From Acidobacteriota bacterium (lineage in GTDB: Bacteria > Acidobacteriota > UBA4820 > DSQY01): 34,104 nucleotides of DNA. Below the pieces are notes generated by a model that was given only the letters and a program-made list of their open reading frames with translations, did not search any database and was not told where the DNA came from. Below, in pieces: positions 15,991 through 18,444 of the stretch. The stretch spans positions 1-34,104 of the forward strand of contig JBFMHB010000034.1 of assembly GCA_040752915.1 (NCBI GenBank), in the 5' to 3' direction. The number at the start of each line of letters is the position of its first letter. Position 1 is the first letter of the stretch. The position numbers were made by a program, and so were the translations under genes.

Positions 15991-16062
15991 TCCGCCTCCC
16001 TCGAAGCTCAGTCTTTCTAGCACGGGGGGGCCTCCGGACGCCACGTGGGGACTTGCCCATCT

Positions 16063-16082
16063 TTGTTGCACCTATGCAACAA
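16063..16082. promoter_or_regulatory. Candidate operator: 8-bp inverted repeat
   Basis: TTGTTGCA (16063-16070) and TGCAACAA (16075-16082) around CCTA. It is a perfect dyad in the divergent region between the methyltransferase (15990, minus) and the Fe-S carrier (16277, plus), closer to the former. Its size and symmetry suit a dimeric repressor site; no regulator gene is adjacent. Confidence 0.5.
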
Positions 16083-16276
16083 CAGATTTCGCGGTGAAAC
16101 AGGGAGGACTCGGCGGCCCTTCCATCTTTCCCCCTGGTGAAACGCCCGTCCCGCGGGGTTCGAGGGCCCATCCGGAGGGTTCCTTTCCCGGAAGAAGAAC
16201 GGGCGCTCCGGCCGTGGCACCGGGGTTGCTCTCCCGGACTCGGTTGGCCCACGGCTGGGCCTCTGAGGAGGAAGCG

Positions 16277-16600
16277 ATGATCGAACTGACCGAACAGGCC
16301 GTGGAGGCCGTGAAGAGCTTCAGGAAGGCGGAGGGCCGCGAGGTATCGGGACTTCGCATCGCCGTCGTGGGCGGCGGGTGCAGCGGATTCCAGTACGACC
16401 TCTCCCTGGCCGAGAAGGCCTCCGAAAACGACGAGGTGTACGACTTCGGGGGGCTCTCCGTCTTTGTGGACAAGACCTCCCTGATCTATTTGAAGGGCAC
16501 CGTGGTGGACTACGTCAACGACCTGCGGGGTTCGGGCTTCGTCTTCCAGAATCCCAACGCCCAGACTTCCTGCGGGTGCGGTCACTCCTTCGAAGCCTGA
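16277..16600 (+). CDS. A-type iron-sulfur carrier protein (IscA/ErpA/HesB family)
   Basis: A 107-residue protein, normal for this family, which delivers Fe-S clusters to target apoproteins. The three ligand cysteines are all present: C35 in G-G-G-C-S-G, and C99 and C101 in S-C-G-C-G. The N-terminal I-E-L-T-E-Q-A-V and the V-F-V-D-K-T-S block also fit. The ATG follows GAGGAGGAAGCG. The frame stays open upstream for about 700 bases without family homology, so the short form is preferred. ErpA and IscA cannot be told apart here. No isc or suf genes are next to it; ygfZ is the nearest Fe-S-related neighbour. Confidence 0.93.
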   Translation: MIELTEQAVEAVKSFRKAEGREVSGLRIAVVGGGCSGFQYDLSLAEKASENDEVYDFGGLSVFVDKTSLIYLKGTVVDYVNDLRGSGFVFQNPNAQTSCGCGHSFEA

Positions 16601-16654
16601 CCATTTCGCGGGGAATTGGCACACCCCTTGCTTTGTTAGGAGTAGTCCCAAGCC

Positions 16655-16851
16655 GTTGAAACGGCAAGGAGGCCGAAAGGCGAACGAGACGCTTTCCCAA
16701 GAGGATCCCCCCTCCTCTCAAAGCTCCCCGGCCGAAAGGCCGGGGAGCCCCCCTCCAGGGTGGAAACGGGGCGAATGATCGGTTTCCCATGAGGATCCCC
16801 CTCCTCTTGTACTGCTCCCCGGGACCCCCCTCCCGGGGAGCGCCTTTTTTT
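16655..16851 (+). repeat. Tandem duplication of a two-hairpin unit
   Basis: Unit A (16655-16748) and unit B (16759-16851) share, in order: a GGAAACGG-like start, GGCGAA-GA, TTTCCCA-GAGGATCCCCC-TCCTCT and a GCTCCCCGG hairpin. Each has a small GAGGA/TCCTC hairpin followed by a strong 11-bp stem. In A the strong stem GCTCCCCGGCC/GGCCGGGGAGC closes on a GAAA tetraloop (16723-16748). In B it is GCTCCCCGGGA/TCCCGGGGAGC (16814-16841) followed by seven T. Unit B lacks about 14 bases present in A. It lies 55 bases after the Fe-S carrier stop. Confidence 0.75.
16814..16851 (+). terminator. Rho-independent terminator in unit B
   Basis: Stem GCTCCCCGGGA (16814-16824) with TCCCGGGGAGC (16831-16841), a six-C loop, then GCC and a run of seven T. 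It would end plus-strand transcripts from the Fe-S carrier gene, about 240 bases past its stop, or a separate short RNA made from the duplicated unit. Confidence 0.85.
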
Positions 16852-16950
16852 GGGTCGCACGTCGGGAAACGCGCGAACGGGGGGAGGCGTCCACGCGACG
16901 GCTCCGGTCCATCCCCCGCCTCCGTTCCTCTCGAGGTTCGCCGGACCGCC

Positions 16951-18444
16951 TCAATCCCCGTCGTAGGCCTGAAGGACGACCTGCCCACCCGGTCCGTCGA
17001 AGACCATCCGGTAGTCGTTCAGGATGTCCCTGCCGAGGATGCCGTACAGAGGCACCGGGAACCGCTGGGGCACGTCCGTCACGAAGATGATTCGCCGATC
17101 GTAGCTCTTCGGCCCCATCGAAATCCTCACCTGTTCGGCGACTCCTGACGTGAAAGCTCCCGACTGTCCCAGCCCATAGAGCTTCCCATACTTGCCCGAG
17201 TTCACCCGGATCCCAACTCGGGGAGCGTACAGAGAGCTCAGAAGGGTGTAGGGGGCCCCGGTGTCGAGAAGGAAGGGAAAGGGACCTCGCCCCTGGAGGA
17301 GGACCGGCACGATGGGCACGCCCCGGTGCCACAGGACCGGGAGAGGGAACCCGCGCTCCCCGAGAAGGGTTTGGGGCTTTGTGCCCGAGGGCCACAAACC
17401 GAAACGGCCCTTCCGCCGGTCGTAGAGAACCACCCCGTCCAGGAAGGGCCCCAGCCCGATGTAGCCGGCCTTGTTGCTCCAGAACTCGCTGTCCCGGACG
17501 TTCACCAGGGCGGGAAGCCTTTGGATGTGCAGGCCCGCCGCCTCCAGGCTCTCCACGAGCACGACGTGGGTCCGTCGGCGCCCCCGATATCCCCATCCCT
17601 CGGCGGTGGTTTCGGAGAGAACGGGCAGATTGAGCCGTCGGATCAGATCTTCGTTCAGCAGGAGGGAGTCGCTTCCCGTGTCCAGGGCGATCCACGTGTC
17701 CCTTGTTCCGTTGAGGCGGAGGGGAATGCTGGGCTCCCGGTAGATCTCCCTGACCCTCGCGAGGGAGGGCGTCTCGGAAGGGAAGGAGACGAGCGTCCCC
17801 CCGCGGGAAGCGAGGGCTTCCTGCAACCGGAGTTCGTCTTGAAGCTCCTCGGAATCCGGGAGCCGGGCGGACAGGGCGCGCAGGCGATCCACCCTGCGGG
17901 AGGACTCGGGATCCAGGCGGGCGGAGGAGGCCTCCACGTTGGGGGAAACCCGGGTTCCCTCCACCCTGCCCCCCCAGAGGAGACGGGAGAGGCCCTCCTC
18001 GTCCCTGCGGAGCTGGAAGACCGTGGCGGCCTTGGTCAGGGCCGTGGAGCCCCAACGCCGGTCCTCCAAGGCCCGCTGGTAGGCCTCCCCCGCCCCTGCG
18101 GGATCGAAGGCATAGAGCCGGCAATCGCCCTGGAGGAGAGCCGCTTCCGGGTCATCTGGAAATCGGCCCGCGAGCTCCTCCGCCGAGGCGAGTGCCTCCG
18201 GCCAGCGCGCCGCCTCGAGCAAGGCCTTGGTCCGGGCGATGGCGATGCGCAGATTACCTGGGTCCTGGCGATGGGCCTTCCCAAGGACTCCCGCCGCCTC
18301 TTCGTAGCGACCCTCTTCCAACAGGGCGATTCCCCTGGCCAGCCCCGTGGAGATCGGCTCTTGAGCCGCCAGCCAAGAAGCCCACAGGAGGAGGGCCGCG
18401 GCGGCCCACCCCCTGCCGGCACCGAATTCACCGATCCTGCTCAT
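16951..18444 (-). CDS. Exported TPR protein with two retropepsin-like aspartyl protease lobes
   Basis: A 497-residue protein. Residues about 10-28 are a signal sequence (W-A-A-A-A-L-L-L-W-A-S-W-L-A-A-Q). Residues about 30-150 are TPR-like helices (G-I-A-L-L-E-E-G-R-Y-E-E-A-A near the start). Two aspartyl-protease lobes follow. Lobe 1 has A-L-D-T-G-S-D-S (D255) and ends with Y-I-G-L-G. Lobe 2 has L-L-D-T-G-A-P-Y-T (D394) and ends with G-I-L-G-R-D. Each lobe carries the hallmark D-T-G and a hydrophobic-hydrophobic-G motif, so one chain could form a complete two-aspartate active site, as in pepsin. Substrate unknown; probably periplasmic. The ATG follows GGAGG at short spacing; another ATG six codons upstream is possible. 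It is divergent from gltX. Confidence 0.85.
   Translation of the reverse strand: MSRIGEFGAGRGWAAAALLLWASWLAAQEPISTGLARGIALLEEGRYEEAAGVLGKAHRQDPGNLRIAIARTKALLEAARWPEALASAEELAGRFPDDPEAALLQGDCRLYAFDPAGAGEAYQRALEDRRWGSTALTKAATVFQLRRDEEGLSRLLWGGRVEGTRVSPNVEASSARLDPESSRRVDRLRALSARLPDSEELQDELRLQEALASRGGTLVSFPSETPSLARVREIYREPSIPLRLNGTRDTWIALDTGSDSLLLNEDLIRRLNLPVLSETTAEGWGYRGRRRTHVVLVESLEAAGLHIQRLPALVNVRDSEFWSNKAGYIGLGPFLDGVVLYDRRKGRFGLWPSGTKPQTLLGERGFPLPVLWHRGVPIVPVLLQGRGPFPFLLDTGAPYTLLSSLYAPRVGIRVNSGKYGKLYGLGQSGAFTSGVAEQVRISMGPKSYDRRIIFVTDVPQRFPVPLYGILGRDILNDYRMVFDGPGGQVVLQAYDGD

Follow-up and report, generated by a model that had tools for sequence, protein, structure and literature searches.

Regulatory RNAs of the Acidobacteriota are, to our knowledge, little described, and a narrow literature search found almost nothing. 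The described RNAs most similar to the present element come from other bacteria. We take ar14 of the Rhizobiales to be the same family as SmelA075/099. SmelA075 and SmelA099 form several hairpins with varying stems, and their C-rich loops, which contain CCUCCUCCC, have been called anti-Shine-Dalgarno (anti-SD) (PMC3927594). In Rhodobacter and other alphaproteobacteria, a DUF1127 gene is followed by CcsR1-4/CIN1, homologous C-rich small RNAs (sRNAs) derived from the 3′ UTR (PMC10253847, PMC8625941), with an RpoH promoter in front and a Rho-independent terminator behind the fourth unit. The 6C RNA/B11 of Actinobacteria has two stem-loops whose C runs pair with ribosome-binding sites, and mutation of the cytosine-rich loops of B11 has implicated them in repression (PMC10470900). 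CsrA sponges of the CsrB/RsmY type carry repeated hairpins with GGA.

Here we describe an element that follows a hesB/ErpA-like gene in a stretch of 34,104 nucleotides from an Acidobacteriota genome (the window; contig JBFMHB010000034.1). As in the CcsR/CIN1 operons, a protein gene precedes several C-rich units, with a predicted alternative-sigma promoter in front and a predicted Rho-independent terminator at the end. Unlike them, the locus has an A-type iron-sulfur carrier gene in place of DUF1127, sigma-54 in place of RpoH and two units in place of four, and it belongs to a different phylum. Its small loops read UCCCCC(C), UCCUC forming the 3′ side of the stem, whereas the CcsR RNAs hold CCUCCUCCC fully within the loop. 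Several hairpins with C-rich loops are shared with ar14, but the loop here can be UCCCCCC, the short stem is conserved and no genomic context is shared. Two stem-loops with C runs are also common to 6C/B11, but the stems differ and 6C/B11 has no known link to hesB.

No Rfam family was found at the gathering threshold in the window or in the corresponding loci of relatives (five loci). The weak matches below threshold include the C-rich anti-SD sRNAs ar14 (RF02344; 25.5 bits against a threshold of 58.8, the best weak match by bit score), 6C (RF01066; 22.9 against 47) and CcsR1 (13.4 against 65.3). By these tests, the element lies outside the ar14, CcsR and 6C families. We consider it a probable new member of a type of regulatory sRNA already described in other bacteria.

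Two homologous hairpin units downstream of hesB

The first-pass annotation of this DNA had described two units of about 95 bases sharing motifs, each with a small GAGGA/TCCTC hairpin and an 11-bp stem. Two homologous units are indeed present at 16655-16851 (Table 1), and both their similarity and the folding energy exceed every shuffle. The best local alignment of one half against the other scored 50, compared with a mean of 17.0 (s.d. 2.6, maximum 33) for 2000 dinucleotide shuffles, and the folding energy of the region was -113.5 kcal/mol (z = -4.52; 0 of 200 shuffles as low). Each unit consists of a GAGGA/UCCUC hairpin of 5-6 bp with a C-run loop, followed by a GC stem of 10-11 bp. As had been noted, the stem of unit 1 ends on a GAAA loop and that of unit 2 on a T-run reaching 16851.

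The stem and T-run of unit 2 form the strongest terminator-like site within 16000-17100. Two G-U pairs in the GC stems favour the plus strand. We infer that the plus strand gives rise to a structured, non-coding transcript some 160-210 nt in length, whose last stem would serve as the terminator.

Table 1 Features of the hesB-RNA locus (positions in the window)
Feature	Position	Strand	Remarks
Dyad TTGTTGCA-CCTA-TGCAACAA upstream of hesB	16063-16082		perfect 8-bp arms
Sigma-54-type promoter of hesB, TGGCACCGGGGTTGC	16215-16229	+	perfect TGGCACNNNNNTTGC match
hesB/ErpA-like A-type iron-sulfur carrier gene, 107 aa	16277-16600	+	Pfam PF01521, E = 1.1e-21; TIGR00049, 3.2e-37
Second sigma-54-type site, TTGGCACACCCCTTGCTTT, between hesB and RNA	16617-16631	+	perfect match; predicted start near 16642
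RNA unit 1	16691-16759	+	covariance model 74.2 bits, E = 9.2e-27 (match to a training sequence); homologous units in 5 other loci
Small hairpin of unit 1, AGAGGA-UCCCCCC-UCCUCU	16700-16718	+	C-run unpaired
GC stem of unit 1, 11 bp, GAAA loop	16723-16748	+	compensatory changes across relatives
C-rich linker motif CCCCCCUCC	16748-16756	+	directly 3′ of stem 1; CCCUCC or longer in 6/6 loci
RNA unit 2 with terminator	16781-16851	+	covariance model 66 bits, E = 2.0e-23 (match to a training sequence)
Small hairpin of unit 2, GAGGA-UCCCCC-UCCUC	16791-16806	+	C-run unpaired
Terminator stem and T7	16814-16851	+	stem 16814-16841, A-CCCCCC-U loop; T7 16845-16851

Conservation of sequence and structure

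Across the 12 units of six loci, the hairpin GAGGA-UCCCCC(C)-UCCUC is invariant save for one C more or less, and the loops of the long GC stems diverge. The earlier description of a conserved structure with diverged loops thus holds for the long stems and fails for the small hairpin, whose C-rich loop is conserved more strongly than the rest of the element; this motif had been missed. Compensatory changes, which the first-pass annotation had proposed to look for, occur in the GC stems, where four pairs show two-sided changes and one of the stem pairs is G-C, A-U or C-G depending on the unit. The covariation score is 0.149, against 0.043 for shuffled alignments and at most 0.035 for slid controls; as the sequences are few and related, this supports the stems rather than proving them. 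Being the same in every copy, the small hairpin offers no covariation. RNAalifold mispairs unit 2 when given the full tandem, owing to the variable length of the C-run. Between genera, the RNA is about 73% identical (all columns, gaps counted), compared with 50-59% at the third codon positions of hesB. This conservation and the covariation of the GC stems support the function at the RNA level that had been suggested.

The conserved sequence could also be protein-coding, either as a short peptide or leader in unit 2 (ATGAGGATCCCC...) or as an ORF on the minus strand. An ATG is found in unit 2 in five of six copies, and on the minus strand GGAGGGGG is followed by an ATG. However, the C-run comprises either 5 or 6 bases, and one-base gaps occur in the spacers even between the near-identical G005 and G002; such changes break the reading frames and argue against a conserved coding frame. 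The second copy in G001 (below) also lacks the ATG. We rejected this explanation and attach next to no credence to it.

The tandem small hairpins, with their unchanging AGGAU and C-loop, might instead be binding sites for an RNA-binding protein, with the RNA as a sponge or scaffold; multiple copies would suit titration. In the best-known case, that of CsrA, the CsrB/RsmY sponges resemble the element in their repeated GGA hairpins. Here, however, the GGA is in the paired arm and the loops are C-runs, and CsrA was found in none of nine genomes searched, while a control search recovers it from E. coli, among others. A CsrA sponge was therefore rejected. Binding by another protein is possible, and we consider the protein-binding explanation as a whole quite improbable. 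Of the RNA-level options raised initially, a tandem small RNA fits best and the CsrA form of protein-binding hairpins falls away, while a regulated terminator is a possible reading of unit 2.

Sigma-54-type promoters at the hesB locus

The product of hesB scores 113.1 bits against the ErpA equivalog, just below the cut-off of 117. The first-pass annotation missed the sigma-54-type sites on either side of the gene. The promoter upstream of hesB has the -24/-12 layout, with a ten-base distance from GG to GC. Sigma-54 (rpoN) is encoded in the genome. There are 14 perfect TGGCACNNNNNTTGC sites in the genome (3.07 Mb), against 4 in a reversed control, and two of the 14 lie on the plus strand at this locus, at 16215 and 16617. 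A scan of the locus for sigma-70 promoters gave none.

TTGGCAT-N5-TTGC is found at the same place upstream of hesB in four relatives that carry the RNA (G001, G004, G005 and G002), so that the sigma-54-type hesB promoter is present in five of five genomes with the RNA. Between hesB and the RNA, these relatives have no sigma-54-type site with up to two mismatches; the site at 16617 is therefore specific to the window genome.

The dyad upstream of the hesB promoter has imperfect counterparts, GTTGCACCGATGAAAC / GTTGCGAAGCTGAAAC, in the same four relatives (by eye), and is possibly the binding site of a sigma-54 activator. A GTTGCA-N4-TGMAAC dyad together with repeated TGAAAC half-sites was seen upstream of the hesB sigma-54 site in the window and on L034, L031, L036 and L037. 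Elsewhere, perfect sigma-54 sites (L103, L109, L104, L108 and L101) precede, by eye, a pilin-like gene, a response-regulator gene and several genes for secreted proteins; such sites could serve to outline a small sigma-54 regulon.

Occurrence in related genomes

A DNA search of 60 genomes found the tandem in the four relatives named above, which represent two sister genera of the same family as the window genome. The pair is thus present directly 3′ of hesB in five genomes from three genera. For G004 and G005, the second matches appear to be duplicates of one locus at contig ends. In G001, a second copy on another contig (L032, 1735-1925) keeps both units after a decayed hesB 3′ end (52.8% identity over 36 residues, with CGCG changed to RGCA), which indicates that the RNA can outlast the gene.

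A covariance model built from the 12 units, those of the window included, was searched over 396 genomes of the phylum, and no further convincing tandem pair was seen outside the genera g1-g3 among the matches read. What these matches showed was either an isolated GC-rich terminator stem or coding sequence. Two genomes of genus g4 (G003 and G006) have hesB, and lack both the RNA and the sigma-54 site of hesB. Given the tandem in g1-g3, the matches read elsewhere and the absence from g4, the element appears to be a family-level RNA as far as seen. Scanning a contig collection gave nine stretches, seven of them from four Acidobacteria MAGs already among the relatives; an Anaerolineae MAG and Acuticoccus gave one match each, which were taken as chance. 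In G011, of the same order, one GAGGA-GCCCC-UCCUC hairpin with a terminator lies between two genes, one of which likely encodes a cytochrome (L049, 1501-1567). It is either a chance match or a distant single-unit relative and was left out of the homolog count.

Tandem hairpins are REP-like and G001 has a second copy, which would suit a mobile or dispersed repeat. The element is confined to a single locus in its own genome and in the majority of relatives, and each copy follows hesB or a hesB remnant. With copies this few and so placed, a mobile repeat was rejected and seems hardly credible. G001 also contains two hairpin pairs of nearly the same sequence, AAGGAGGGGC...GCCCCTCCT with a GC stem behind it (L034, 6401-6473; L071, 1113-1185), which seem to be a dispersed repeat unrelated to the tandem RNA.

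The constant position after hesB, together with the T-run that ends unit 2 in the window, also suits another explanation, in which the RNA does no more than close the hesB mRNA at its 3′ end, the two hairpins terminating and stabilizing the message without targets in trans. Where the contig reaches, hesB and a converging protease gene flank the element in relatives (L005 and L033; a long minus-strand ORF in L034). Termination, however, does not call for two copies of an invariant GAGGA-UCCCCC-UCCUC hairpin or for an additional sigma-54-type promoter lying between hesB and the hairpins. G005, G002 and the second copy in G001 have weak T-runs, and this second copy survives beside a decayed hesB. 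We regard this explanation as unlikely, though it deserves to be kept in view.

C-rich motifs and predicted pairing with ribosome-binding sites

The motif CCC(C)UCC occurs at three sites common to all six loci, namely the two small-hairpin loops and the linker after stem 1. The window alone has a fourth, the six-C loop of the terminator, and four CCCCUCC in 210 nt were reached by 2 of 5000 shuffles. In all six loci, the C-runs of the small-hairpin loops are predicted to be unpaired (0.8-1.0), and the linker motif is largely paired in single-sequence folds. Several hairpins exposing C-runs with CUCC are a feature of the anti-SD class. The element has such hairpins, with the C-run exposed and the adjoining UCC paired: UCCUC is held inside the small hairpin, and until this opens only the C-run is free.

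The reading that we favour, and hold to be rather likely, is an sRNA that comes from the sigma-54-controlled hesB transcript or from its own promoter, pairs with G-rich ribosome-binding sites and lowers translation. The RNA would be made as the 3′ UTR of the hesB transcript and probably processed from it; in the window genome, it is probably also made from the sigma-54-type promoter at 16617-16631. The exposed C-runs, continuous with the UCC of the stem, probably pair with ribosome-binding sites of the GGAGGGGG type, and the translation of other mRNAs would probably be lowered. In this way the control exerted by the hesB operon would extend to the post-transcriptional level, like that of the DUF1127-CcsR operon in Rhodobacter. 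Such an RNA would add a conserved family absent from Rfam 15, would point to a further origin of C-rich anti-SD sRNAs in a different phylum, and would tie one such sRNA to an iron-sulfur carrier and to sigma-54. We know of no other case of this combination, from a search that was not exhaustive.

A bolder and tentative proposal is that the iron-sulfur carrier operon carries its own anti-SD sRNA under sigma-54 control so as to reprogram the translation of many mRNAs with G-rich leaders when iron-sulfur insertion is needed. If true, this would be an independently evolved counterpart of the iron-sparing control of the RyhB/IsrR type, built on C-rich loops.

Ribosome-binding sites matching the C-runs do exist, as the genome has 80 GGAGGGGG-N3-10-ATG sites against 21 in a reversed control, an enrichment that largely reflects the general G-richness of ribosome-binding sites. 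Any G-rich leader scores well in a ranking by duplex energy, which therefore yields candidates only. Candidate targets with GGAGGGGG in their leaders are genes on L144, L148 and L116; the product of the one on L144 resembles, by eye, histidine ammonia-lyase. Hfq is present in the genome. By eye, the GGAUC-CCCCC-UCCU of the small hairpin resembles the 3′ end of the genome's own 16S rRNA, GGAUCA-CCUCCU.
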